NCBI GenBank assembly: GCA_001515265.1
Contig: LNDB01000010.1
Location: forward strand, 1-64,000
Direction of reading: 5' to 3'
Length of the DNA stretch: 64,000 nucleotides
Source: Candidatus Dichloromethanomonas elyunquensis
Lineage (GTDB): Bacteria > Bacillota > Desulfitobacteriia > Desulfitobacteriales > Syntrophobotulaceae
This document shows, one piece after another, positions 866-14,617 of the stretch. A model generated the notes under the pieces. That model searched no databases, had not been told where the DNA came from, and worked only from the letters and a program-made list of their open reading frames with translations. Numbering within the stretch: position 1 is the stretch's first letter; the number at the start of each line of letters is the position of its first letter. Both the position numbers and the translations under genes were made by a program.

Positions 866-1879
866 ATGAATTCAAGAGAAAGAGTTTTTGCAACATTAGA
901 TGGAAAGATCCCTGACCGGGTGCCAGTACTTGCCCAGGTAGGAGATCATGCGGGAATTAGTCAGGGTTTAACTTATGATGTAATGTACAAGGATGCTCGG
1001 AGAGCAGCAGATGCACACTTAAAGGCATTAAAACGGTATAAGTATGATTCAGTGGCGATCCAGGTAGAACCAAGCTGGCCGGTAGTTGAAGCATGCGGCG
1101 GAACGATTTTTTATCCTCCTGACAAATACCCGTGGATCACGAAAAATCCTATTTTGACAGCAGAAGATATCAAAAAGTTTAAGATGCCGGATTTTGCCAA
1201 AGCTCCTGGTTCAAAAGTGATGGTAGAGGGGACCAAAATCTTGGCGGAAAGTACAGATGTCCCTGTAGGAGCGTATGTAACCGGACCGTTTACTTTTTCA
1301 ATGCAGCTATTTCCCTATGAAAATTTCATCAAGAGTGTTCGAAACAAAGAATTTATGCATGCCTTGATCCAAAAAAGCACAGAAGTAGTGAACGCCTATG
1401 CGCAAGCCTTAAAGGAAGCAGGGGCATCTTTCCTGGTAATATGTGAGCATGACCTGCAGATGTTCGCACCTGCAACGATGACCGAATTTTTTATCCCATA
1501 TTTAAAGCAGGCGCTCACCTACAAATACAATATTTTGCACATGTGCGGGAAAATGGATACTCATCTTGATATGAACGGGGATGCTCTGGCTGATATGGAA
1601 AAACTGCAGATGGTCAGTTTAGGGCACCATACAGACATGCTCAAGTTTAAAAAGAAATATGCCGGAAAACTAGGTTTTGCCGGAAACTTAGACCATATTG
1701 TCTTTTTGCCTCAGGCTTCTGCAGAGGAAGTAGAGAAAAAATGCGGAGAGATCATCAGTGCCGCCAAAGAGGGCGGACAGTACATGCTGTCACCGGGTTG
1801 TGAAATTACCTCTGATATACCGCCGGAAAATGTTGAGGCCATGGTTAGAGCAGCAGAAAAATTTGGGCGGTACGCGTAA
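866..1879 (+). CDS. UroD/MtaA-family corrinoid methyltransferase
   Basis: 337-residue TIM-barrel protein of the uroporphyrinogen decarboxylase-like family that includes MtaA, MtbA and the methyltransferase I components of anaerobic O-demethylases. It starts with NSRERVFATLDGKIPDRVP, typical of these methyltransferases and not of haem-pathway HemE. LHMCGKM near residue 227 and SPGCE near 311 match the His-x-Cys...Cys zinc site that activates the thiol or methyl-donor substrate. Next to an MtrH-type protein and a RACE activator, it most likely moves a methyl group between a substrate and a corrinoid protein. The substrate (phenyl methyl ether, methylamine, methanol or other) cannot be read from sequence. 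Confidence 0.85.
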   Translation: MNSRERVFATLDGKIPDRVPVLAQVGDHAGISQGLTYDVMYKDARRAADAHLKALKRYKYDSVAIQVEPSWPVVEACGGTIFYPPDKYPWITKNPILTAEDIKKFKMPDFAKAPGSKVMVEGTKILAESTDVPVGAYVTGPFTFSMQLFPYENFIKSVRNKEFMHALIQKSTEVVNAYAQALKEAGASFLVICEHDLQMFAPATMTEFFIPYLKQALTYKYNILHMCGKMDTHLDMNGDALADMEKLQMVSLGHHTDMLKFKKKYAGKLGFAGNLDHIVFLPQASAEEVEKKCGEIISAAKEGGQYMLSPGCEITSDIPPENVEAMVRAAEKFGRYA

Positions 1880-1893
1880 AGGAGGGTATTGGT

Positions 1894-2793
1894 TTGTTCA
1901 AATTCAACGCCGAACAGAAAGTCTATCAGATCGGAAATGTTACTATCGGCGGTCAACCCGGACAATATCCGACCGTGTTAATGGCAAGTATTTTTTATCA
2001 GGGCGACAAGCTGGTTATAGATGAAGAAAGCGGAACTTTCGATCAAGAAGGTGCTCTTGAGTGGATTAACAAAATTGATACGATGTGTAAAAGTGTCAAA
2101 CTTCCGCTGATGATCGATATTGTCGGATCAAGTGAAAATGCTATGCGTGCCTATGTTGAATTCATCGGACGCAAAACAGATTTGCCGTTCATCATTGACG
2201 GGACAATTGCCAAAGTAAGAATTGCCGGCGTGGAAATGGCTGCCAAGCTTGGTTTGCACGACAGGGCTGTGTTTGATTCCGTAAACGTTGAGAGTAGAGA
2301 AGATGAACTAAAAGAAGTTAAAAAGCATGGTTTGAAGGCTACTATTGTAATGCTGAACAATTCAAAGAAGCCAACAGCCCAGGGCAGAGTGGATATTGCT
2401 GAAGAACTGATTGAAAAGGCTAAGACCTATGGTTTTGAAAAACTGATGCTTGACATGGCCGTAATGGACTCAGTTGAGCCAGGACCGGCAGCTAAAGCCA
2501 TATATATGCTCAAAGACAAATATGGTTATCCTGCCGGCTGTTCACCAACCCATACGTTGATTACCGGATGGAAGAAAGCTTCTCTATATAACAAAGTAGA
2601 GGTAGCTTCCACTAAAACCAGCATTGCGACCAGCCTGCAGCTATTGGGTGCCGACTTTGTAATGTATGGAATCAAACAAACGGAAATAGTACCGTCGATG
2701 GCGGCAGTTGATGCTTTGGTTGCATACAGCTGTATGCAGCATGGGGTAAGGCCTGCCAGCCATGACCATCCTCTGTATCATATTTTTAAGTAA
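1894..2793 (+). CDS. MtrH-family methyltransferase (methylcorrinoid:tetrahydrofolate type)
   Basis: 299 residues resembling subunit H of methanogen tetrahydromethanopterin S-methyltransferase. In acetogens and Desulfitobacterium-like bacteria, members of this family (MtgA, MtvA and O-demethylase methyltransferase II) pass the methyl group from a corrinoid protein to tetrahydrofolate. The family N-terminus (IGGQPGQYPTVLMASIFY) and conserved DIVGSS and GCSPTH segments are visible. The start is TTG at 1894, 8 bp after a strong GGAGGG; no better ATG is present. It follows the UroD-type gene by 14 bp, so both are probably co-translated. With that protein and a corrinoid protein it would complete demethylation into the Wood-Ljungdahl methyl branch. 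Confidence 0.87.
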   Translation: MFKFNAEQKVYQIGNVTIGGQPGQYPTVLMASIFYQGDKLVIDEESGTFDQEGALEWINKIDTMCKSVKLPLMIDIVGSSENAMRAYVEFIGRKTDLPFIIDGTIAKVRIAGVEMAAKLGLHDRAVFDSVNVESREDELKEVKKHGLKATIVMLNNSKKPTAQGRVDIAEELIEKAKTYGFEKLMLDMAVMDSVEPGPAAKAIYMLKDKYGYPAGCSPTHTLITGWKKASLYNKVEVASTKTSIATSLQLLGADFVMYGIKQTEIVPSMAAVDALVAYSCMQHGVRPASHDHPLYHIFK

Positions 2794-2820
2794 ATTTTCA
2801 TTTTTTTGGGGGGGTAAAAA

Positions 2821-3456
2821 ATGTCTAATGTTATTGTCGCCTGCTATACTCTGAAAATTCCGTTGGAAAAAGCTATCGGAGTACTGGACGAGGACGAACA
2901 GCCGGATATTATTTACCTTCCTGCGATTATGCACCTTTATCCTGATAAGCTGGCAGCTGCTATTAAAGGGCTGCTTGCTTCTCTTAAAGGTATATATTGC
3001 GGAATAATAGTAGCTTTTGGTAATTGTGCCACAAAAATTGATGAAATAGTTAAGCAATATGGGGCAATTAGGGTTCCCGGTGAGTTATGCTATGGAATGT
3101 TTGTCGGCGAAGACAACTATCTGAAAATGATAAAAGAAGTGCCGGGAACCTTTTTTTTGACAGACGACATATGCAGAAATTTTTCGAAGCTGGTTACAGA
3201 ACCTTTAGAATGGGAAAAGCGGCCCAAGATTAAAGAAATGATGCTTCGTAATTATAAACGGGTGGTATATCTGGATGCTGCGGGAGATGGTTCCCTTGAC
3301 AGAAAAGCGAATGAAATCGCGGATTCCTTTAAGTTGCCCCTGGAAATTCAAAGGGTCGGTAATAAGCATTTTGAAACAATTATTTTGCAAACTCTAAGAG
3401 AAATTAAGCACTTTCCGAAGAACGGTGGAGGAAAGCTATGGCTGGCAGAAAAATAA
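2821..3456 (+). CDS. DUF1638-family protein
   Basis: 211-residue soluble protein whose opening (VIVACYTLKIPLEKAIG) and overall make-up resemble the DUF1638 family, whose biochemical function is not known to me. Such proteins are often encoded beside corrinoid methyltransferases in methanogens and anaerobic bacteria, as here. Cysteines in the first two thirds (in VACYT, IYCGII, GNCAT, GELCYG, DDICRN) could bind a metal or cofactor. A G-rich Shine-Dalgarno (GGGGGGG) precedes the ATG. Its last 19 bases overlap the start of the activator gene, which points to translational coupling and a shared role in the methyl-transfer system. Confidence 0.72.
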   Translation: MSNVIVACYTLKIPLEKAIGVLDEDEQPDIIYLPAIMHLYPDKLAAAIKGLLASLKGIYCGIIVAFGNCATKIDEIVKQYGAIRVPGELCYGMFVGEDNYLKMIKEVPGTFFLTDDICRNFSKLVTEPLEWEKRPKIKEMMLRNYKRVVYLDAAGDGSLDRKANEIADSFKLPLEIQRVGNKHFETIILQTLREIKHFPKNGGGKLWLAEK

Positions 3457-5264
3457 TTTTTCATCCCGAAGAGAAGACAATTTTTGCGGATGAAGCGAAT
3501 ACTGTTTTGGAGGCCTCGCAAAAAGCGGGCGTTTCTATTGAAGCGACTTGCGGCGGCAGAGGGACTTGCGGCAAATGCAGGGTGAGTATTCTACATGGGC
3601 AAAGAGAACCATTAACCAAAGTCGAGGAAAACTTCCTAAGTGCGCAGGATGTAGAAAAAGGGATAGCCTTGGCATGTCAGTGCCGGGGCTATGGTGATTT
3701 AGAAATCCTCGTTCCGGAAAAAGAAAATGGATCATCCCGGAAAGTAATATTAGAAACGAAAACTGTGCCTCTTGATACAGATGTGAAAAAAGAATATCTG
3801 GAATTGGAAAAACCTCATATCCATGATTTCAGGCCAGATGAGAAACGCCTTATAGATGCATTAAAAGGGAAACAAATTAATTCTTTGCAGCTCGATGTCT
3901 TATCTTCTATACCCTCTTTCCTGCGGGAAAACGATTTTAGGGTTACCGCCGTTCTTGCCGGGAGTGAATTATTAGCAGTAGAAGCAGGGGATACACGCAA
4001 CAAAATCTATGGCGTAGCATTTGATATTGGGACTACAACTGTTGTAGGCTATTTGTTGGATCTATGCCAGGGTCTTGTATTAGGAGCGGCATCCCGTACC
4101 AATAAGCAGAGTTCTTATGGGGCAGATGTGATATCACGGATCCAGTTTTCAGACGAACAAGTAAACGGATTGAAGTGTTTGCAGGAAAATGTGATGGATG
4201 TCGCAAATGAAATAATCCAAGAGCTGGCACAGCAGAACGGAATTGATACTGAGACGGTCTATCAGGTATCGGTTGTGGGAAACACAGTTATGTCCCATCT
4301 GTTTTTGGGCTTATCCCCTGCTGCACTGGGAAAATCACCTTTTATTCAGGTATTTTCTTCAATGAAAGTAATCCCTGCGAAGAACTTGGGACTGAAAGTC
4401 AATTATCATGCTAAGGTCATTGTATTGCCCAACATTGCGGGATACGTTGGTTCGGATACGGTCGCGGCTTTGTTGGCGGTGGGCATTGACAAGAATACCG
4501 GACCGGCAATGATGATTGATTTGGGAACCAACGGGGAGATCGCCCTGACCTGTGAAGGAAAACTGTATACCTGCTCTACAGCCGCAGGGCCCGCTTTTGA
4601 AGGGGCACATATTTATCAAGGGATGAGAGCCACTGAAGGAGCTATAGAAAAAGTACGTATTGATAAGACCGTAAATATTTCTGTTATTGGAAATGCTGTC
4701 CCAAGTGGGATTTGCGGTTCCGGTTTAATTGACGGCATTTCTGAGCTGGTAAAATCGGGGATTATTAATAAAAATGGCCGGATGCTGCCACAGAAAGACC
4801 TGGATGGGAAAATACCGGAAGAGTTATGGCACCGGTTACGTATGAGGGACTCTGGTCAGGAATTTGTCCTCCATTATAGTTCAACCAAACAGGAAGATGT
4901 CGTTATAACCCAGCGGGATGTGCGTGAATTACAGATGGCAAAGGCTGCCGTCAGGGCCGGAGCCGAAATTCTTTTAAAGGAAGCCGGTATTGAGGCCAAG
5001 GATTTAAATACGGTAAAGCTGGCTGGGGCATTTGGCAGCTTTGTCAGGAAAGAGAGTATTCTCTCAATAGGACTGCTTCCCAGAGTCGATGGGCAAATTG
5101 TATATCCGGTAGGAAATGCAGCAGGAGAAGGTGCTATTTTAGCGCTTGCTTCAGAAGAAAAGCGACAGCACGCTGAGTATCTTGCCAGGAAAGCAACGCA
5201 TGTCGAACTTTCGCTCAGACCGGATTTTCATACAGCCTTTCGAGATGCCTGTGCTTTTGTTTAA
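3438..5264 (+). CDS. RACE-like corrinoid activation protein ([2Fe-2S] plus ASKHA ATPase)
   Basis: 608 residues. The N-terminal ferredoxin-like domain has Cys38, Cys44, Cys47 and Cys80 (CGGRGTCGKC...ACQC), the CX5CX2C...C pattern of a [2Fe-2S] cluster. A linker follows, then an ASKHA-type ATPase half with phosphate-binding loops (FDIGTTTVVGYL near 195, DLGTNGEIAL near 360) and GICGSGLID near 425. Reductive activators of corrinoid proteins (RACE, RamA-like in role) use ATP to reduce accidentally oxidised Co(II) back to Co(I) on the partner corrinoid protein. Length and domain order fit that family. It overlaps the DUF1638 gene by 19 bp. Its presence implies a corrinoid protein substrate encoded elsewhere. 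Confidence 0.88.
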   Translation: MAGRKIIFHPEEKTIFADEANTVLEASQKAGVSIEATCGGRGTCGKCRVSILHGQREPLTKVEENFLSAQDVEKGIALACQCRGYGDLEILVPEKENGSSRKVILETKTVPLDTDVKKEYLELEKPHIHDFRPDEKRLIDALKGKQINSLQLDVLSSIPSFLRENDFRVTAVLAGSELLAVEAGDTRNKIYGVAFDIGTTTVVGYLLDLCQGLVLGAASRTNKQSSYGADVISRIQFSDEQVNGLKCLQENVMDVANEIIQELAQQNGIDTETVYQVSVVGNTVMSHLFLGLSPAALGKSPFIQVFSSMKVIPAKNLGLKVNYHAKVIVLPNIAGYVGSDTVAALLAVGIDKNTGPAMMIDLGTNGEIALTCEGKLYTCSTAAGPAFEGAHIYQGMRATEGAIEKVRIDKTVNISVIGNAVPSGICGSGLIDGISELVKSGIINKNGRMLPQKDLDGKIPEELWHRLRMRDSGQEFVLHYSSTKQEDVVITQRDVRELQMAKAAVRAGAEILLKEAGIEAKDLNTVKLAGAFGSFVRKESILSIGLLPRVDGQIVYPVGNAAGEGAILALASEEKRQHAEYLARKATHVELSLRPDFHTAFRDACAFV

Positions 5265-5311
5265 AAAAATTGGGATAGAAGACAAAGCTAACTTGATTGG
5301 AGGGAAGAAAA

Positions 5312-6178
5312 ATGGTGGAATTTAAATGTCCGGGACATAATACAGAACATATTCCCGAAGAAGTCTTAAAGGAAGCTAGCATAATTTTCCCGAACGCTTA
5401 CACGGATAAGAGCGGCATGGTTGCTCTTGCCAGAACGCAAAAGGAATACCGGAACGAAGTATTTGCCAAGGTGCCTTTTTGCGTTACGGTTGAAGCAGAA
5501 GCCTTTGGAGCAGATATAAAAATGGGTGATGCTGTGCACCGGCCGCGGCCAAATGGCCGTCGGTTCTCATCTCTTGAAGAACTGTCCGGTATCCAAGTGC
5601 CGGATATCTCTAAAGGCCGAATGGGAGAAGTACTGGATGCTATAGGGATCCTGGCCGAGTCGGGTGAAAAAGCAATACTTAACATCGTTGGTCCATTCAC
5701 TATTATTCATGCTCTAATAAATCATGCGAATTTTTTCAATGGATTGCGCAAGGACCCGTCAAAAATCAAGGAAATCCTGGCCGTTATTGAAAATTGTGTT
5801 ATTCAATACGGTATTGAGGGTGTCAAAAGAGGTGCCGCAATTATTTCTTATGAAGATGCAGTAGGGGTACAGGATATTGTAGGACCTGCTATTTATCGGG
5901 ACTTTAGCGGACCATCCAGCCTGAGAATTATTAATGGAATCAAAGAAATTGGGGGAAAATTTCTGATTCATCTTTGCGGCAGGACCTCTGCCTCACTTGA
6001 AAACGCCGATATGGCCCGGTCTTATGTTATTGAAACCGGAAAAGCTTCCACCTATGATCAGGCTCTGGAAGAGGTGCTGGCTAAGTCAACCGGTCCTATT
6101 GTTGTCGGTCACAAGTGTATAGCATGGGGTTCAATGAAGATGGATCAGCCCTACGTTTGGGGAATAGAATTAACATAG
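5312..6178 (+). CDS. Short UroD-family methyltransferase-like protein
   Basis: Second uroporphyrinogen decarboxylase-like protein of the operon, 288 residues from the ATG at 5312, which sits at good distance from GGAGGGAAG; an in-frame TTG at 5297 overlaps that site and is unlikely. At about 50 residues less than the first copy, it lacks the usual N-terminal segment and opens with FKCPGHNTEHIPEE. LIHLCGRTS near residue 225 and VGHKCI near 272 match the His-x-Cys and downstream Cys zinc ligands, so it may be catalytically competent. It could be an alternative methyltransferase I or II, or a thiol methyltransferase; I cannot tell which. Confidence 0.75.
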   Translation: MVEFKCPGHNTEHIPEEVLKEASIIFPNAYTDKSGMVALARTQKEYRNEVFAKVPFCVTVEAEAFGADIKMGDAVHRPRPNGRRFSSLEELSGIQVPDISKGRMGEVLDAIGILAESGEKAILNIVGPFTIIHALINHANFFNGLRKDPSKIKEILAVIENCVIQYGIEGVKRGAAIISYEDAVGVQDIVGPAIYRDFSGPSSLRIINGIKEIGGKFLIHLCGRTSASLENADMARSYVIETGKASTYDQALEEVLAKSTGPIVVGHKCIAWGSMKMDQPYVWGIELT

Positions 6179-6490: not shown

Positions 6491-6553
6491 TGATTTTTAT
6501 CCTGGGAAGACAGACGTAATGAAATCGAATCATTTTCGGAAGGCGTGAAGAAG

Positions 6554-7645
6554 ATGCATCTATCATTGGAAGAAGTATTATCCGGCATTCGACCGGTAGA
6601 ACAGGCCTGGCGCGTAAAAGCTAGAAAGAGGCTTGATGATTTGGCTATTCCGCACCATAGTCTGGGGTATTTACTGGACTTAGCAGAGCAACTGGCTGCC
6701 ATTAAAGAAAGTATGCTACCTTCAGTAGCGAAGAAAATGCTGGTAACCATGGCCGGTGACCATGGCGTTGTCGCTGAGGGAGTCAGCGCATTTCCCCAGG
6801 AGGTCACCCGGCAGATGGTACATAATTTTGTTGCAGGGGGCGCGGGGATCAATGTCTTGGCGGAAGCAGCAGGCGCCGGTGTGACCGTGGTAGATATGGG
6901 AGTCGCAGCAGATTTAAGCGCTTTGGTAAATCAGAAAAAGATACTTTCTTATAAAGTCGCCTATGGTACGCAAAATATGGCCAGGGGTCCGGCCATGACT
7001 GAGGTGCAGGCCGTACAGGCTTTGGAAGCAGGGATAGAAGTCGCCGGTATCATGGCCCAAAGGGGTATAGAGCTTTTGGGCACAGGCGACATGGGAATCG
7101 GCAACACAACACCCAGCAGTGCTATTTTAGCGGTATTTTCCGGTCGTTCTCCAAGGCAGGTGACCGGCCGCGGAACCGGTATTCATGAGAAGGCCTTGGA
7201 CAACAAAGTGAGGGTTATCGAAAAGGCAATTGCGATTAATAAACCGGATCCGCAAAATGCTTTGGATGTACTATCCAAGGTGGGTGGCTTTGAGATTTCC
7301 GGGATTGCCGGATTGATTCTGGGTGCAGCCTACTACCGCATACCGGTGGTCGTAGACGGACTGATATCCTCTGCCGGGGCTTTGGCAGCACAAAAAATGG
7401 TACCGCATGCCGTTGACTATATGATTGCAGCCCATCAATCCATGGAACCGGGACATCAATACATGCTGGAAGCATTGGGTTTAAAACCGCTTCTGAATCT
7501 AAACTTGCGTTTGGGAGAGGGTACCGGTGCAGCTTTGGCCATGCCGATTGTGGAAGCGGCTTCTCGGATTGTCTATAAAATGCTGACCTTTACGGATGCA
7601 GGGGTTGCGGGACCGGTAAATTCGGAGGGGCTGGCTTATGCATGA
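6554..7645 (+). CDS. cobT: Nicotinate-nucleotide-dimethylbenzimidazole phosphoribosyltransferase CobT
   Basis: Transfers phosphoribose from nicotinate mononucleotide to a benzimidazole, giving the alpha-ribazole phosphate used in the B12 nucleotide loop. About 363 residues, near the usual CobT length. Family segments are visible: TMAGDHGVVAEGVSAFP, GTGDMGIGNTTPSSA and EPGHQYML; the C-terminal LRLGEGTGAALAMP carries the catalytic Glu. I place the start at ATG 6554, 10 nt after GGAAGG; GTG 6545 is almost on top of that site. First gene of a riboswitch-controlled operon, overlapping bzaC by 8 bp. It may accept 5-hydroxy- or 5-methoxybenzimidazoles as well as the dimethyl form, as CobT homologues do. 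Confidence 0.95.
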   Translation: MHLSLEEVLSGIRPVEQAWRVKARKRLDDLAIPHHSLGYLLDLAEQLAAIKESMLPSVAKKMLVTMAGDHGVVAEGVSAFPQEVTRQMVHNFVAGGAGINVLAEAAGAGVTVVDMGVAADLSALVNQKKILSYKVAYGTQNMARGPAMTEVQAVQALEAGIEVAGIMAQRGIELLGTGDMGIGNTTPSSAILAVFSGRSPRQVTGRGTGIHEKALDNKVRVIEKAIAINKPDPQNALDVLSKVGGFEISGIAGLILGAAYYRIPVVVDGLISSAGALAAQKMVPHAVDYMIAAHQSMEPGHQYMLEALGLKPLLNLNLRLGEGTGAALAMPIVEAASRIVYKMLTFTDAGVAGPVNSEGLAYA

Positions 7646-9170
7646 TCCTCAGGATATGAATCCACAATACCTGGAAGATCTGGCGATAGGATATTGGTAT
7701 TCAGAAGTGCTTTTTACAGCTGTGGAGCAAGGGCTGTTTACACGATTGGAGCCCGGCGGCAAACTTGTGGCGGAGTTGGCCAAAGAATTAAACTATGAGT
7801 CCGGATGTTTAAAACGCTATCTGCATGTGCTGTCAAACTTGGGACTGGTCTTCGAGGCTGACGGGTATTGCACCAATACCAAGCTTTCCCGAAAATACCT
7901 GATTCAGGGGGCCGAGGCATATCAGGGCGATACTATTCTTTGGCGCAAATACCTCATTGAAAATTGGCAAAGCCTGGATCAATGTTTGAATAAAGGCACC
8001 CGGGTCGTTTTACCGCCTATAGGGGAGCCGGACGAGGCTGTCAAACAGCGTTTCCGCCATTATTGCCGGGCTATGGACTGTATTGTAAAGAATAAAATTG
8101 AAGAGATATTGCCGATTTTCTCCAAGCTCAAGCTGCAAGGAGAGATCCTGGATGTAGGTTCAGGCTTAGGCGCTTTTTCTGTCGGATTTTTAAGGCAGTT
8201 TCCGGGTACAAAGGCTACGCTGCTGGATTTGCCGCAAGTCCTGGAATACGCAGAAGAAATCCATACCGGAGGCGCATATGCAGCCCGGATTCAATATTGG
8301 CCGGCCAATATGTTAGAATCATGGGAACTATCCGAAAAAAAATACAGTTTGGTGATTCTATCCAATATCATACATGCCTTTGCTGAGTCAGAATCAGGAC
8401 ATGTGATTTCCGAAGCTGCTGCACGTCTGGCTGAGGATGGACTTTTACTTGTTCACGACTTTTTTCTGGAGCACGATCCGGATAAGGCAGCTTTATCCGA
8501 TCTCAACATGTTGGTGAATACGTACAACGGCAAGGTCTATACGGCCTCCTGGGTGCAGCAGCAGTTGCGGTATGCTGGATTAACTGTGACAGAGCGGATC
8601 CCGTTAGGCTCAGATACGGCGGTTCTGCTGGCAGCAAAGCAGGCGGAAAGGCTGGAAGATTTGGGTATTAGCGTATTGCAGCAATTGTCGGTAAAGATCC
8701 AAACTTTGGGATTTCAAACCGTACAGCCGATTGATGTGAATTTGATCCACATACCGGACTGGGTTGGGCTGAAATGTGAATTTGGCTGTGACGGGTACAA
8801 TCTTTCTCATTGTCCGCCCAATAGCATCAGACCTGAAAAAACGCGGGCGATACTCAGGGATTACACCAAGTGCCTGCTGCTGCAAGGCACGCCGCCGACA
8901 CGTGATTTTCAGAGAATGGTGCTGCAAGCGGAACATACAGCCTTTAAAGCAGGCTATTATAAAGCATTTTCTTTTTGGGCCGGTCCTTGCAGCATTTGTC
9001 CGGAATGTGCCGGCAGCGGGAATTGCAATAACCATAAAAATGCACGGCCTTCGATGGAGTCCGCTGGCATTGACGTTTTTAAAACGATTCAAAGAGCTGG
9101 ACTTACCCTTAAAACACTGCCTGAAAAAGACGATTATATTAAATATTTTGCATTATTGCTATTGGAGTGA
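7638..9170 (+). CDS. bzaC: BzaC: benzimidazole O-methyltransferase fused to a DUF2284 domain
   Basis: 510-residue fusion. Residues about 15-340 form a plant-type SAM-dependent O-methyltransferase: an N-terminal winged-helix dimerisation part, then the SAM loop LDVGSGLGAFSVGFL near 172 and a catalytic region around VHDFFLEHDPDKAA near 275. In the known anaerobic pathway BzaC methylates 5-hydroxybenzimidazole to 5-methoxybenzimidazole. Residues about 365-510 match DUF2284 predicted metal-binding proteins: CEFGCDGY, HCPPNSIRPEKT, the cysteine cluster GPCSICPEC near 449, a downstream GNCNNH, and RPSMESAGIDVF. The extra domain could bind a metal cluster; its role is unknown. It overlaps cobT by 8 bp, and bzaD follows after 5 bp. 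Confidence 0.88.
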   Translation: MHDPQDMNPQYLEDLAIGYWYSEVLFTAVEQGLFTRLEPGGKLVAELAKELNYESGCLKRYLHVLSNLGLVFEADGYCTNTKLSRKYLIQGAEAYQGDTILWRKYLIENWQSLDQCLNKGTRVVLPPIGEPDEAVKQRFRHYCRAMDCIVKNKIEEILPIFSKLKLQGEILDVGSGLGAFSVGFLRQFPGTKATLLDLPQVLEYAEEIHTGGAYAARIQYWPANMLESWELSEKKYSLVILSNIIHAFAESESGHVISEAAARLAEDGLLLVHDFFLEHDPDKAALSDLNMLVNTYNGKVYTASWVQQQLRYAGLTVTERIPLGSDTAVLLAAKQAERLEDLGISVLQQLSVKIQTLGFQTVQPIDVNLIHIPDWVGLKCEFGCDGYNLSHCPPNSIRPEKTRAILRDYTKCLLLQGTPPTRDFQRMVLQAEHTAFKAGYYKAFSFWAGPCSICPECAGSGNCNNHKNARPSMESAGIDVFKTIQRAGLTLKTLPEKDDYIKYFALLLLE

Positions 9171-9175
9171 AATCG

Positions 9176-10501
9176 ATGAAAATACTTTTGGTGCAAACGC
9201 CGTCTGTGGAAAGCTTAACCGCTGAGCGCGTATATCCTATCGGCATTGTAACCTTGGGAACACATCTTATCCGTGCAGGGCACGAGGTGGTGCTGCTGGA
9301 CATGAATCTGGAAGTTGATGCCTACGGTGCCTTAAAAGAGAAGCTGCTGGCAGAGCAGCCGGACATCGTGGGGTTGTCTTTAAGAAATATCGATCCTTTA
9401 GCGAATAAAACCAGCTCTCTGATACCGCCTTTGGTCATCAGCGTACGTATGGTTCATGCGGTTTTACCAAGTACACCTATTGTAGTGGGCGGAACCGGTT
9501 TTTCATTGTTTCCTGAGCGAATTATGGAGCAATTGCCGGAAATCCGGTATGGCATAAAGGGAGAGGCCGAATACGGATTTCCAAAGCTCTTAGATCATTT
9601 TGAACAGCCAGGAAATATTTCGGGCTTATGTTACCGGGAAAACGGTCGAGTCATGGTTCGTCCGGTCGTTTCAGATTTTACTTTTGAAGATTACCTTGTT
9701 CCCGACCGGGATTTGCTGCCGCCGGAATTATATCGGGATATTAATGACTATGTGCCGGCTTTTGGTATCGAAACCAAGAGAGGTTGTCTTTTGAACTGTG
9801 CTTACTGTGTTTATCCTCAGCTTCAGGGTAAAATCATGCGCTGCCGCAAACCTGCGGAAGTCGTTGACGAGATGGAAATGCTTCAAGCTAAATATGGTCT
9901 TCGGGATTTTCATTTTAATGATCCGGTGATCAACCTGCCCATCGGTCATCTGGAGGAAATTTGTGAAGAGATCATCAAGAGGAAACTGAAGGTTACCTGG
10001 ACCGGCTTTTTCCGGGAAGACGTACTGGACCAAGAAAAGGTAAAACTCTACGAAAAATCCGGTTGCAGCTGTTTTTCTTTTTCGCCGGACGGCTATTGCC
10101 AAAACTCCCTGAACGTATTGCAGAAGAACCTTCAAGTGTCCGATATCCTCAAAGCCGCAGAGCTGACGGCACAAACCGATGTAGTCGTCATCTATCATTT
10201 CCTGACCAATGTGCCGGGAGAAAATGCCGAGACGATTGAACAAGGCAAAGCTTTAATGGATCGGCTTTATGAGATTCACACACCGAGGAGAAATCTGGGC
10301 GCCATCGTATTGAATAATATCCGGATTATGCCGGGCACACCCCTTGAAACCATAGCCAGAAGGCAGGGAGAGATTGACGGGGATACGGACCTGTTGTATC
10401 CGGTTTATTACAATCCCAAAAGGTACGCCGCAACAAGGTATTCCTTAGAGACCTATCATCTGACAAAGAATGTTTTCATGTGGCAGAAAATGAAGGTATA
10501 A
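9176..10501 (+). CDS. bzaD: BzaD: B12-binding radical SAM methylase
   Basis: About 441 residues. The N-terminal half resembles a cobalamin-binding domain (MKILLVQTP...IGIVTLGTHLIRAGHEVVLLD), and the radical SAM core carries CLLNCAYC at about residues 204-211, the CX3CX2C ligands of a [4Fe-4S] cluster. Class B radical SAM methylases use methylcobalamin to methylate unactivated carbon. In the Eubacterium limosum pathway BzaD turns 5-methoxybenzimidazole into 5-methoxy-6-methylbenzimidazole. Start chosen at ATG 9176, 8 nt after GGAG; GTG 9167 is also in frame but overlaps the bzaC stop. Step assignment rests on gene order and family, since BzaD and BzaE are both of this class. Confidence 0.87.
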   Translation: MKILLVQTPSVESLTAERVYPIGIVTLGTHLIRAGHEVVLLDMNLEVDAYGALKEKLLAEQPDIVGLSLRNIDPLANKTSSLIPPLVISVRMVHAVLPSTPIVVGGTGFSLFPERIMEQLPEIRYGIKGEAEYGFPKLLDHFEQPGNISGLCYRENGRVMVRPVVSDFTFEDYLVPDRDLLPPELYRDINDYVPAFGIETKRGCLLNCAYCVYPQLQGKIMRCRKPAEVVDEMEMLQAKYGLRDFHFNDPVINLPIGHLEEICEEIIKRKLKVTWTGFFREDVLDQEKVKLYEKSGCSCFSFSPDGYCQNSLNVLQKNLQVSDILKAAELTAQTDVVVIYHFLTNVPGENAETIEQGKALMDRLYEIHTPRRNLGAIVLNNIRIMPGTPLETIARRQGEIDGDTDLLYPVYYNPKRYAATRYSLETYHLTKNVFMWQKMKV

Positions 10502-10512
10502 GGAGGTCTGAA

Positions 10513-12033
10513 ATGAAGGTTTTTCTTCTGGAGCATCCCCGGCAGATTACGATGGACAGATGCAATGATATTGCCAATACTCCTTTGGCATCCAGTTTGA
10601 TCACAGGCTGTATCGCCGGCCTGCTGGACAGCAAGGGGCACGAAATTAAAATTGCCGAAGGATTTTTAGACAAGCTGACCTACGAGGATATTCACCGCCA
10701 GGTCATTGCCTTTGCCCCATGCGTGCTCGGTGTTCATTTAGTTTTTAACTGGGAAAACAACCGGCGATTGTATACTTTTCTCAAACAGCTAAAGGCGGAG
10801 GGTTTGGTCGGAAAGATTGTCGGATATGGTTATTATCCCACCTTTGCTTATGAGGAGATTCTTAAGTTCTGCCCGGAATTTGACGGACTGATAATCGGTG
10901 AGCCGGAGCAAACCTTTGCCGAATGGGTAGAAACAGGGATGCCTGTACCGGGTATGGCCTGGGTAAATCCGGCAGCAGAGATACAGATGCAGCGACGTGA
11001 GGTAAATTACGATCTGAATGCCTTGCCTGATCCCATCCGCACCGAAGCGATGATGCGCATAGGAGAGGTTAACATTGAAGGGAGCCGAGGCTGCTACGGG
11101 AGATGTACCTTTTGCTATATCAACCCCTATTACGGAGAAGGTTCCTGCTGGCGGGCTAAGAGCCCGGAGCGAATCATGCAGGAAATTGACCGTATCCTTG
11201 TCCAGCATGGACCCATGAAATTCTATTTTACCGACCCTAATTTCTTTGGCCCCGGCAAGCAAGGGCAGGAGCGTGCGTTGCAGTTAGCCGCTATGCTCAA
11301 AGAGAGAAAAATCCGCTTTGGTATTGAAGCTAGGGTTAACGATATTCATCAAGATACCATTGCAGCCCTTGTAGATGCCGGCTTGGAGGATTTGCTGATC
11401 GGGCTGGAAAGCGGTCGTGATGATTCGCTGAAGCGGCTCCATAAAATGACGACAGTCGAGCAGAACGAGAAAGCGTTAAGCATCCTGCGTGCTAACGGCA
11501 TTGAACCCAATGTGGGTTTTATCATGTTCGAGCCGGACTCTTCCCTAACGGATATTCGGACCAATTTCGAATTTCTCAAGCGAAATTCTCTGCTAAAAAA
11601 TGTATTTATCACAGCGAATGTCCTGTATCATCCCCAGATTATCCTGCAGGGAACCAAGGCCTACCGGGATTTGCAGCGGGAGAGACGGCTCATCCTCAAA
11701 GGAACCATTTATGAAGGTATGACCGCTTTTATCATTCCGGAAGTAGCGCGCCTGGCAGAAATAATCGGACAGATTACCAACTGCTTTTTTGTTCGCATGG
11801 ACGATCTCTGGCAGGGAAAGCTTCAGGAACCTCATAATGCTGCAAGCCTCTATGAAGCTATTAATCAACTGTTGGTGAATGGCTTTGAGGAAACCTTAAG
11901 CCGGTTGGAAACGGGAGAATCCCTGGATGAAGAGGAAGCTATAGCGCTGACAGAGGAAATCAAAATAAAAATCAAGTCTATTTTTCATCAATTTGAGGAG
12001 GGAAAACATGTCAACATTAGAAGGAGCAATTAA
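10513..12033 (+). CDS. bzaE: BzaE: B12-binding radical SAM enzyme, final dimethylbenzimidazole step
   Basis: 506 residues from ATG 10513, preceded by an excellent AAGGAGG. The N-terminal region fits a B12-binding fold (MKVFLLEHP...VLGVHLVFNWENN). The radical SAM motif CYGRCTFC is at about residues 194-201, followed by the usual core segments ending in GLESGRDDSLKRLHK. In the described pathway BzaE converts 5-methoxy-6-methylbenzimidazole to 5,6-dimethylbenzimidazole, a notable replacement of methoxy by methyl. The longer reading frame opening at 10480 overlaps bzaD and lacks a site. The last 26 bp overlap bzaA. Confidence 0.87.
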   Translation: MKVFLLEHPRQITMDRCNDIANTPLASSLITGCIAGLLDSKGHEIKIAEGFLDKLTYEDIHRQVIAFAPCVLGVHLVFNWENNRRLYTFLKQLKAEGLVGKIVGYGYYPTFAYEEILKFCPEFDGLIIGEPEQTFAEWVETGMPVPGMAWVNPAAEIQMQRREVNYDLNALPDPIRTEAMMRIGEVNIEGSRGCYGRCTFCYINPYYGEGSCWRAKSPERIMQEIDRILVQHGPMKFYFTDPNFFGPGKQGQERALQLAAMLKERKIRFGIEARVNDIHQDTIAALVDAGLEDLLIGLESGRDDSLKRLHKMTTVEQNEKALSILRANGIEPNVGFIMFEPDSSLTDIRTNFEFLKRNSLLKNVFITANVLYHPQIILQGTKAYRDLQRERRLILKGTIYEGMTAFIIPEVARLAEIIGQITNCFFVRMDDLWQGKLQEPHNAASLYEAINQLLVNGFEETLSRLETGESLDEEEAIALTEEIKIKIKSIFHQFEEGKHVNIRRSN

Positions 12034-13306
12034 AGGACTCACACTGGAGCAAAGAGAAGCTGCCGCGGTCGCTGAGGGAGTTTCCGCAGCAGTAATCGAG
12101 CAAGGAGTGGCCGCCGGTACGATCGTAGTGCCCTTTAATCCTTTGCACAAAGGATTAAAGCCCATGGGAATCGGTAAAGGGCTCAGAACAAAAGTCAGTG
12201 CCAGTATCGGGCTGAGCAGCAAAGACAGCACCGTGGCCGGTGAACTGGAAAAACTGAAGACGGCTCTGACTGCAGGAACCCATGCCGTCATGGATCTCAG
12301 CATAGCCGGAGATATGGATGACGCGCGCAGAGCCATTTTAGCAGCATCGCCGGTGCCCGTAGGTACGTTGCCTCTATATCAGACAGTCGCCGAGGCCAGT
12401 CAAAAATACGGATCAGCTTTGAAAATGACACCCGGACAAATGCTTGAGGTTATAGAACGTCAAGCTGCTGATGGTGTCGACTTTATGGCACTGCACTGTG
12501 CAACGACCTTTGAGGCCATCAAACGTGCTAAAAAAGAAGGCCGCATAGACCCTTTGGTGAGTTATGGCGGTTCGCACATTATTGGCTGGATGGTCCATCA
12601 CAATAAGGAAAATCCCCTCTATGAGAACTATGACCGCATTCTGGAGATCGCGAAGAAGTACGGGGTAACCCTTAGCCTGGCGGATGGCATGCGTCCGGGT
12701 TGTCTGGCGGATTCCTTGGACGGAGCACAGGTGCAGGAGCTTATCATACTCGGCGAGCTGGTGGATCGGGCTGCCAAAGCCGGTGTCCAGATTATGATCA
12801 AAGGGCCTGGCCATATGCCGCTGAATCATATCAAGGATACGATAACCTTGCAGAAAAGCCTTTGCAAAGGTGCGCCTTACTTTGTTTTCGGTCCCTTGCT
12901 GACTGATCTTGCTGTCGGCTACGATCAGATTAATGCAGCCATCGGCGGTGCTCTCAGCAGCTGGTATGGCGCTGAATTCCTTTGTTATGTTACTCCAGCC
13001 GAGCATATCGGTAATCCGGATGCGTCACAAGTGCGTCAAGGTGTCATTGCTGCCCGTATTGCTGCTCAAGCCGGAGATCTGGCCAAAGGCATGCCGGAGG
13101 CCATCCAGTGGGACCTAGATATGTCCAATGCCCGCCGAGACATGAAATGGGAAGAACAAATCAGACTCGCCCTTGATTCCGAACATGCGGCATATATCCG
13201 CAAGACCCGAAACAACGGTGAGATATCATCCTGTGCCATGTGCGGGAAGTTTTGTGCTATGGAAATCATCGCCAAATATATGAAAATTGATAAGCACTCC
13301 TGCTAA
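12008..13306 (+). CDS. bzaA: ThiC-paralogue BzaA (5-hydroxybenzimidazole synthase component)
   Basis: 432 residues of the ThiC family. ThiC turns aminoimidazole ribotide into the thiamine pyrimidine; the paralogues BzaA, BzaB and BzaF turn the same substrate into 5-hydroxybenzimidazole by radical SAM chemistry. Family segments include GTIVVPFNPLHKGL, MALHCATTF, GGSHIIGWMVHH, SLADGMRPGC and IKGPGHMPLNH. The C-terminal cluster cysteines are Cys409, Cys412 and Cys416 (CAMCGKFC), a CX2CX3C spacing one residue shorter than ThiC. The ATG lies inside bzaE (26 nt overlap), with GAGGAGG upstream. Two adjacent paralogues in a B12-riboswitch operon argue against thiamine synthesis. Which copy is A and which is B is by gene order. 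Confidence 0.88.
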   Translation: MSTLEGAIKGLTLEQREAAAVAEGVSAAVIEQGVAAGTIVVPFNPLHKGLKPMGIGKGLRTKVSASIGLSSKDSTVAGELEKLKTALTAGTHAVMDLSIAGDMDDARRAILAASPVPVGTLPLYQTVAEASQKYGSALKMTPGQMLEVIERQAADGVDFMALHCATTFEAIKRAKKEGRIDPLVSYGGSHIIGWMVHHNKENPLYENYDRILEIAKKYGVTLSLADGMRPGCLADSLDGAQVQELIILGELVDRAAKAGVQIMIKGPGHMPLNHIKDTITLQKSLCKGAPYFVFGPLLTDLAVGYDQINAAIGGALSSWYGAEFLCYVTPAEHIGNPDASQVRQGVIAARIAAQAGDLAKGMPEAIQWDLDMSNARRDMKWEEQIRLALDSEHAAYIRKTRNNGEISSCAMCGKFCAMEIIAKYMKIDKHSC

Positions 13307-13333: not shown

Positions 13334-14617
13334 ATGACACAAGTATTAAAGGCCCGTGCCGGAAAAATAACGGAAGAAATGGAAGCCGTTGCGCGTAACG
13401 AACAGCTCGATGTGGAATTCGTAAGAAAAGGAGTAGCCGAAGGACGCATCGTTATTCCCAGAAATATTAATCGCAAGCCCTTCAAATACTGCGGGATCGG
13501 GGAAGGTATGCGGGTCAAGGTCAATGCCTTGATCGGCACCTCCAGCAACCGTGACGATATGGAAATGGAAGCCCGAAAATTGAGAGCGGCACAGGAGGCC
13601 GGTTGTGACAGCTTTATGGATTTGAGTACCGGTTCCTGCATTGATGCCATGCGCAAGCAAACCTTAGCAATGGCCGATATCGCCGTAGGCTGCACCACTA
13701 TTTACCAAGCGGGACAGGAAGCTATTGAAAAATACGGAAGCGTAGTAGAAATGCGGACGAAGGATATCCTCGATAATATCGAAAAACAAGCTGCAGATGG
13801 TATTGATTTTATGGCCATCCACAGCGCCTTCAATAATTCCGTATTGAAAGTCATGCAAAAAACAGGCCGTGTAACCTGGGTGGTCAGTCGCGGAGGTTCC
13901 TTTATCACCGGCTGGATGCTGCACAACAAAAAGGAAAATCCCCTGTTTGAGCACTATGATCAAATTCTTAAGATATTGAAAGCCTACGACGTTACATTGA
14001 GCCTCGGTGATGCCATTCGTCCCGGTGCAACGGCGGACTCCCTGGACGGAGCTCAGATGCAGGGGCTGCTGGTGCAGGGAGAACTGGTCAAACAGGCGCA
14101 GGCCGCCGGTGTCCAGGTTATGGTAGAAGGCCCGGGCCATGTACCCCTCAATCATGTGGAAGCGACCATGAAGCTGCAAAAAAGACTTTGCAACAACGCA
14201 CCTTATTTTATCTTGGGTACATTGGCGACGGATGTTGCCCCAGGCTACGACAATATTACAGGAGCTATCGGAGGAGCTTTTGCCGGCGCCTGCGGTGCAG
14301 ATTTCCTCTGCTACCTTACTCCGGCAGAGCATTTGGGGCTGCCTTTGGAGGAAGATGTCCGCACCGGGGTCATCACGACTAAAATGGCCGCGCAGATTGC
14401 TGATGTAGCAAGAGGACATAAGCAGGCCATCGCCAGAGAAAATGAAATGGCGCGTGCCCGCGTGGCTATGAATATTGACCGGCAAATCGAATTCGCTTTA
14501 GCCCCCGATAAACTCATCGCTGCTAAGGAAACGGGCTGCGGACAGCACCTCTGTACAGCCTGCGGTAAAGACTGTGCTGTTCAGGAAGCCGCCCGATATT
14601 TTGGTATCGCCCAATGA
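13334..14617 (+). CDS. bzaB: ThiC-paralogue BzaB (5-hydroxybenzimidazole synthase component)
   Basis: 427 residues, second ThiC-like protein, colinear with BzaA along its whole length (GRIVIPRNINRKPFKYCGIGEGMRVKVN, MAIHSAFN, SLGDAIRPGATADSLDGAQ, VEGPGHVPLNHVE). Cluster cysteines are Cys407, Cys410 and Cys414 (CTACGKDC), again CX2CX3C. In organisms with both BzaA and BzaB the two are needed together for 5-hydroxybenzimidazole formation; single-protein species use BzaF instead, and this copy could have BzaF-like activity. Last gene of the operon, 27 bp after bzaA with its own AAGGAAGG site, and followed by a strong hairpin. Confidence 0.88.
   Translation: MTQVLKARAGKITEEMEAVARNEQLDVEFVRKGVAEGRIVIPRNINRKPFKYCGIGEGMRVKVNALIGTSSNRDDMEMEARKLRAAQEAGCDSFMDLSTGSCIDAMRKQTLAMADIAVGCTTIYQAGQEAIEKYGSVVEMRTKDILDNIEKQAADGIDFMAIHSAFNNSVLKVMQKTGRVTWVVSRGGSFITGWMLHNKKENPLFEHYDQILKILKAYDVTLSLGDAIRPGATADSLDGAQMQGLLVQGELVKQAQAAGVQVMVEGPGHVPLNHVEATMKLQKRLCNNAPYFILGTLATDVAPGYDNITGAIGGAFAGACGADFLCYLTPAEHLGLPLEEDVRTGVITTKMAAQIADVARGHKQAIARENEMARARVAMNIDRQIEFALAPDKLIAAKETGCGQHLCTACGKDCAVQEAARYFGIAQ

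Follow-up and report, generated by a model that had tools for sequence, protein, structure and literature searches.

The locus analysed here raises the question of why BzaC, the enzyme that supplies the methoxy intermediate in the anaerobic synthesis of the vitamin B12 base, should end in a cysteine-rich domain, DUF2284. In this pathway the 5-methoxy compound is the product of BzaC, the 6-methyl group is put on by BzaD, and BzaE finishes the base by converting the methoxy to a methyl group, the final and least understood step. We analysed a window of 64,000 nucleotides (positions 1 to 64,000 of contig LNDB01000010.1 from Candidatus Dichloromethanomonas elyunquensis, forward strand) and compared its bza genes with those of other genomes. 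Judged by gene content, the presence of DUF2284 follows bzaE rather than bzaC or bzaD, a point that is new to this analysis.

The ORFs of the window and their family matches gave the tightly packed gene order cobT-bzaC-bzaD-bzaE-bzaA-bzaB:

6545..7645 (+), cobT (TIGR03160, E 8e-132)
7638..9170 (+), bzaC, O-methyltransferase fused to DUF2284, 510 aa (ORF list, Pfam)
9167..10501 (+), bzaD, B12-dependent radical SAM protein (TIGR04385, E 2e-197, above cut-off)
10480..12033 (+), bzaE, B12-binding/radical SAM protein (Radical_SAM, E 7e-17; B12-binding, E 4e-7; BzaE family alignment)
11993..13306 (+), bzaA, ThiC-like (PF01964, E 3e-172; under the BzaB cut-off)
13334..14617 (+), bzaB, ThiC-like (TIGR04386, E 3e-232, above cut-off)

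The bzaC ORF shares 8 nt with cobT and 4 nt with bzaD, and it sits within a bza/cobT operon, as is expected of a BzaC. Immediately 5′ of cobT, the window holds a corrinoid methyltransferase-type cluster (866-6178; MtrH, DUF1638 and a RACo-like activator), in which a UroD-family ORF (5297-6178) stops short of the end of its profile.

Within bzaC the following features were located on the same strand:

7653..7901 (+), O-methyltransferase dimerisation domain, residues 6-88 (PF08100, E 2.2e-8)
8058..8579 (+), SAM methyltransferase domain, residues 141-314 (PF00891, Methyltransf_2, E 4e-14)
8151-8171 (+), SAM motif I, DVGSGLG (invariant columns)
8226-8228 (+), acidic residue D197 (invariant columns)
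8373-8375 (+), catalytic-type His246 (invariant columns)
8730..9164 (+), DUF2284 domain, residues 365-509 (PF10050, E 4.1e-35; same place in the whole-genome search)
8775..8813 (+), first cysteine group, C380, C384 and C392 (CEFGC ... HC; invariant in alignments)
8988..9026 (+), second cysteine group, C451, C454 and C457 (CxxCxxC), with C463 (nearly invariant)

The front part thus has the Methyltransf_2 and dimerisation domains, the SAM motif I and the catalytic-type His of an O-methyltransferase, and its predicted model matches class I O-methyltransferases. The sequence-only reading had placed a DUF2284 domain at the C-terminus of BzaC and had named its cysteine motifs; the profile search bore this out, since the match to residues 365-509 covers positions 3-161 of the 161 in PF10050 at 121.3 bits, against a curated cut-off of 25, and the motifs are present. 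The CxxxC, C and CxxCxxC pattern recurs throughout 58 fused homologues, with 6 of the 7 cysteines invariant, and the window protein is 42-79% identical to the 57 others in the alignment. The E-value, together with the identical placement of the domain in the whole-genome search, rules out a chance match or a mis-called domain. The same search, in a genome that is 82% complete, found no second DUF2284.

The possibility that the fusion is an oddity of the source genome was ruled out by surveys of other genomes. A search of BzaC homologues for the fusion had been proposed as a check, and in a phylum sample of 398 genomes it was found in 20 of the 21 that bear bzaD. A scan of GTDB genomes took the methyltransferase part alone as its query, so that the fusion could not bias it; of the 80 loci that it yielded, most are fused, and these come from Bacillota, from Nitrospirota and from one MAG each labelled Chloroflexota and Desulfobacteraceae. 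In Nitrospirota, each of the 16 true BzaC detected was fused; two further Nitrospirota candidates for an unfused BzaC (L195 and L196) were rejected, being distant methyltransferases that represent other enzymes. As far as these genome sequences go, the fusion is the standard BzaC architecture in Bacillota and Nitrospirota. The domain had been described as unexpected on a SAM methyltransferase, which was only partly right, since BzaC normally carries it in DMB makers and NCBIfam already has a name for methyltransferases joined to DUF2284 (ArsM_DUF2284_UU).

With the predicted metal-binding protein family DUF2284/PF10050, BzaC has in common a full-length profile match and all cysteine motifs, and BzaC-type DUF2284 domains group in a single clade (96/90) that excludes the stand-alone DUF2284 proteins tested. 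The selenoproteins ArsM_DUF2284_UU and MbdU (NCBIfam NF041536 and NF045648) join an ArsM methyltransferase or another domain to a C-terminal DUF2284 and give partial matches to BzaC, which however has a different methyltransferase and no in-frame TGA; its scores of 90.7 and 95.1 bits, against cut-offs of 575 and 600, rule it out as a member of either. Elsewhere, a single in-frame TGA interrupts the DUF2284 frames of L175 (G461), L176 (G436), L178 (G432) and G047:C26:17274-17729, which are probably selenoproteins.

We compared the state of the fusion with the presence of bzaE. Among the Desulfitobacteriaceae, all 15 genomes with a fused BzaC have bzaE (>790 bits) and all five with an unfused BzaC lack it; in the Moorellaceae, bzaE is present in all three genomes with the fusion and absent from the only one without it (G893). 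A BzaE-like protein of 207-209 bits is present in G404 and three other genomes; because three of these four have no BzaC, it was left out of the BzaE count. About half of the unfused loci lack bzaE, and the remainder belong to two lineages, the Acetobacterium group and G067.

The same comparison separated bzaE from bzaD. In Moorella G401 and G403 (L040 and L044) bzaD is absent genome-wide, and in G896 (Moorella; L216) and G613 (Nitrospirota; L218) it is absent from the operon, on an operon-level reading; all four operons keep bzaE and a bzaC fused to DUF2284. Conversely, three loci (L067, L072 and L038) keep bzaD, lack bzaE and have the DUF2284 deleted in place. Behind their truncated bzaC genes, scars of the domain gave alignment scores of 100, 99 and 182, respectively, against shuffle maxima of 56, 42 and 45, and the last 28 to 46 residues of the deleted domain are still readable. 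These in-place scars show that DUF2284 was lost, rather than missing from the outset, and that bzaD stayed while the preceding domain and the following gene went. The two dissociations, bzaE without bzaD and bzaD without bzaE, rule out a coupling of DUF2284 to bzaD.

On a tree of the methyltransferase domain with 137 rows, some species appearing twice because two collections were used, the presence of BzaC-type DUF2284 and that of bzaE agreed in 132 of the 134 rows scored. Seven supported independent pairs were available for bzaE, and the six informative ones all pointed the same way (sign test, p 0.031); in the same test the four informative pairs for bzaD likewise agreed (p 0.125). The p value for bzaE is modest because the losses are few, and the scars and the copies in trans described below weigh as much. 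Three misfits remain. In the complete chromosome of Formimonas warabiya (L034), BzaC is fused although neither bzaD nor bzaE is present. L087 is fused, but its contig ends there and it was left unscored. The third, L081, from a 2.7-Mb Acetobacterium MAG that may be incomplete, has bzaE and an unfused BzaC, with no BzaC-type DUF2284 found and a weak DUF2284-like scar (score 55, shuffle maximum 49).

The two lineages that combine bzaE with an unfused operon BzaC, the Acetobacterium group and G067 (L021), proved to keep the domain elsewhere. A second gene with DUF2284 (L146-L152) was found away from the operon in G067 and in all but one of the seven Acetobacterium-group genomes. These seven genes retain 42-45 of the 47 near-invariant DUF2284 residues and only 17-43 of the 76 of the methyltransferase, having lost the Asp of motif I, D197 and His246, and the unfused operon BzaC proteins of these lineages keep 75-76 of the 76 methyltransferase residues in Acetobacterium and 66 in L021. 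Apart from L021, unfused BzaC proteins in general keep 72-76. Pfam searches of four of the second genes detected DUF2284 and no methyltransferase domain; the dimerisation domain was matched in the three Acetobacterium paralogues tested, and DUF2284 was the sole match in L152, the paralogue of G067. In the tree, the six Acetobacterium paralogues nest among the DUF2284 domains of Acetobacterium BzaC (support 98/96). We read the second genes as products of duplication with complementary loss, which would have taken place in both lineages. Such complementary loss suggests that BzaC has two functions that can be separated, and that selection maintains the DUF2284 function in the presence of bzaE.

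By comparison of genomes, then, DUF2284 is shown to share the loss or retention of bzaE, whatever the state of bzaD, and to be movable onto a protein with a dead methyltransferase. This coupling to BzaE is well supported by the gene patterns, and DUF2284 is probably a separable and required partner of the BzaE step, which leads from 5-methoxy-6-methylbenzimidazole to DMB. We consider the best explanation, in which we have moderate confidence, to be a two-function BzaC: the front part, a SAM-dependent O-methyltransferase, would provide the 5-methoxy group, and the back part would be a cysteine-rich accessory module needed by BzaE at the last step, where a methyl group would take the place of the methoxy, yielding DMB. 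From the conservation of the cysteines and from chemical reasoning we infer a redox role, in which a putative Fe-S centre held by C380, C384, C392, C451, C454 and C457 would supply electrons to BzaE or to its cobalamin. Because methoxy-to-methyl conversion is a net reduction, unlike the C-H methylation by BzaD, such a role would explain a need at BzaE only. The earlier suggestion that the domain aids the radical SAM enzymes, by hand-over or by reduction of their clusters, is upheld as to a role outside methylation and narrowed to one of the two enzymes, BzaE, since the domain is kept without BzaD and is lost with BzaE despite BzaD.

The covariation with bzaE would equally be expected if DUF2284 were a carrier or docking module that holds the 5-methoxy(-6-methyl)benzimidazole riboside and passes it to BzaE, its metal being structural and not redox-active. 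Fusion to the very enzyme that makes the methoxy intermediate agrees with such a module, and the split-off paralogues that retain the N-terminal dimerisation domain could dock to the real BzaC. However, direct channelling from BzaC is less natural once the module is on a separate protein, and L152 shows only DUF2284 in Pfam; this explanation is possible, but we regard it as rather doubtful.

Gene order offers another route to the same pattern, in that 3′-terminal deletions of the operon would take the end of bzaC along with bzaD and bzaE. A single deletion could suffice in the bzaC-only loci (L057, L063, L069, L110 and L215), whereas L067, L072 and L038 have an intact bzaD between the DUF2284 scar and the site of the missing bzaE, so that one deletion removing everything is ruled out for these three. 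The Acetobacterium group and G067, moreover, preserve the domain in trans while bzaE stays, and a by-product of gene order is very unlikely to account for the link. The covalent attachment of DUF2284 to the methyltransferase in most genomes might instead mean that it supports or regulates its own enzyme, through stability or through redox or metal sensing. Against this, the unfused BzaC proteins retain their methyltransferase residues, the methyltransferase is dead in the split-off copies that still hold DUF2284, and BzaC is unfused in Moorella of the G893 type, M. thermoacetica being reviewed as a producer of [5-OMeBza]cobamide (PMC8123684); we judge this the least probable of the explanations weighed.

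BzaC has its operon, both domains of the methyltransferase part, the SAM motif and the catalytic-type His in common with the 5-hydroxybenzimidazole O-methyltransferase BzaC of Moorella, Eubacterium limosum and Acetobacterium. The bza genes of Moorella G893 comprise bzaA-bzaB-cobT-bzaC only, and its BzaC differs in lacking DUF2284. This fits the M. thermoacetica operon, bzaA-bzaB-cobT-bzaC, and its 5-methoxybenzimidazole product, [5-OMeBza]cobamide, as given in the review (PMC8123684). The published BzaC activity may therefore describe the unfused form, if G893 is the published strain, as its matching operon suggests.

Sequence searches found no solved relative of DUF2284 in the PDB. The domain was modelled with AlphaFold2 (mean pLDDT 84, with weaker loops round the cysteines), and the model gave as top Foldseek matches the epoxyqueuosine reductase QueG, a cobalamin and Fe-S enzyme with a nitroreductase-like domain, and nitroreductase folds, at a probability of 0.94, a TMq of ~0.48 and an E-value of 0.026, which is not significant. 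Profile-profile comparison with QueG (hhalign) gave a probability of 0.4%, again not significant, and we treat the predicted QueG-like fold as a lead. Stand-alone DUF2284 genes of the same genomes adjoin corrinoid proteins or UroD-type corrinoid methyltransferases at 13 of the 28 loci read, in about five distinct groups, an uncontrolled count that Pfam partly confirmed. Among the stand-alone genes of Acetobacterium (L141-L145), the one at L141 has as neighbour a protein that weakly resembles the QueG-type double 4Fe-4S profile PF13484, scoring below cut-off.

Under our best explanation, the four genomes that have DUF2284 and bzaE without bzaD would need a use for them other than DMB synthesis, which counts against it. 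DUF2284 might act in anaerobic DMB synthesis as a catalytic partner so far overlooked, a reductive Fe-S/corrinoid module of QueG-like type that works with BzaE to strip off the methoxy group installed by BzaC, Moorella G401, G403 and G896 and Nitrospirota G613 then making a lower ligand such as 5-methylbenzimidazole; we consider this combined proposal unlikely. If BzaE swaps methoxy for methyl, the operons L040, L044, L216 and L218 may specify a 5-methylbenzimidazole-type cobamide, although we know of no report of 5-methylbenzimidazole as a natural product of the bza pathway. No link between DUF2284 and cobamide synthesis was found in the passages on DUF2284 from the open literature searched, and within this scope the DUF2284-BzaE link appears to be unreported.

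If BzaE needs DUF2284, the domain would be a missing part for reconstituting BzaE in vitro, and a domain of unknown function that is also found beside corrinoid methyltransferases would gain a role. Cobamide prediction would be sharpened as well: an unfused BzaC would point to a 5-methoxy-type ligand, whereas BzaC-type DUF2284 accompanied by bzaD and bzaE would indicate DMB. Ready-made controls are at hand in the natural losses of these genes.

Two further operons were found in decay. In G889 (Moorellaceae), a 416-aa chimeric ORF (L217:5322-6569, minus strand) joins the first part of bzaA to a middle part of cobT and the last part of DUF2284, and is a bza operon collapsed through in-frame deletions. 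In G443, whose genome lacks bzaE, bzaC is a mere DUF2284 fragment (L219:5164-5652, minus strand) beside intact bzaA and bzaB, and this is another decaying bza operon. Finally, two BzaE proteins (L036:9695-11539 and L039:9812-11431) carry in-frame inserts of ~70 and 36 aa, respectively, at the same site past the radical SAM cysteine motif; both contain repeated GFGGQRNVPD-like stretches and look like a small translated repeat element.
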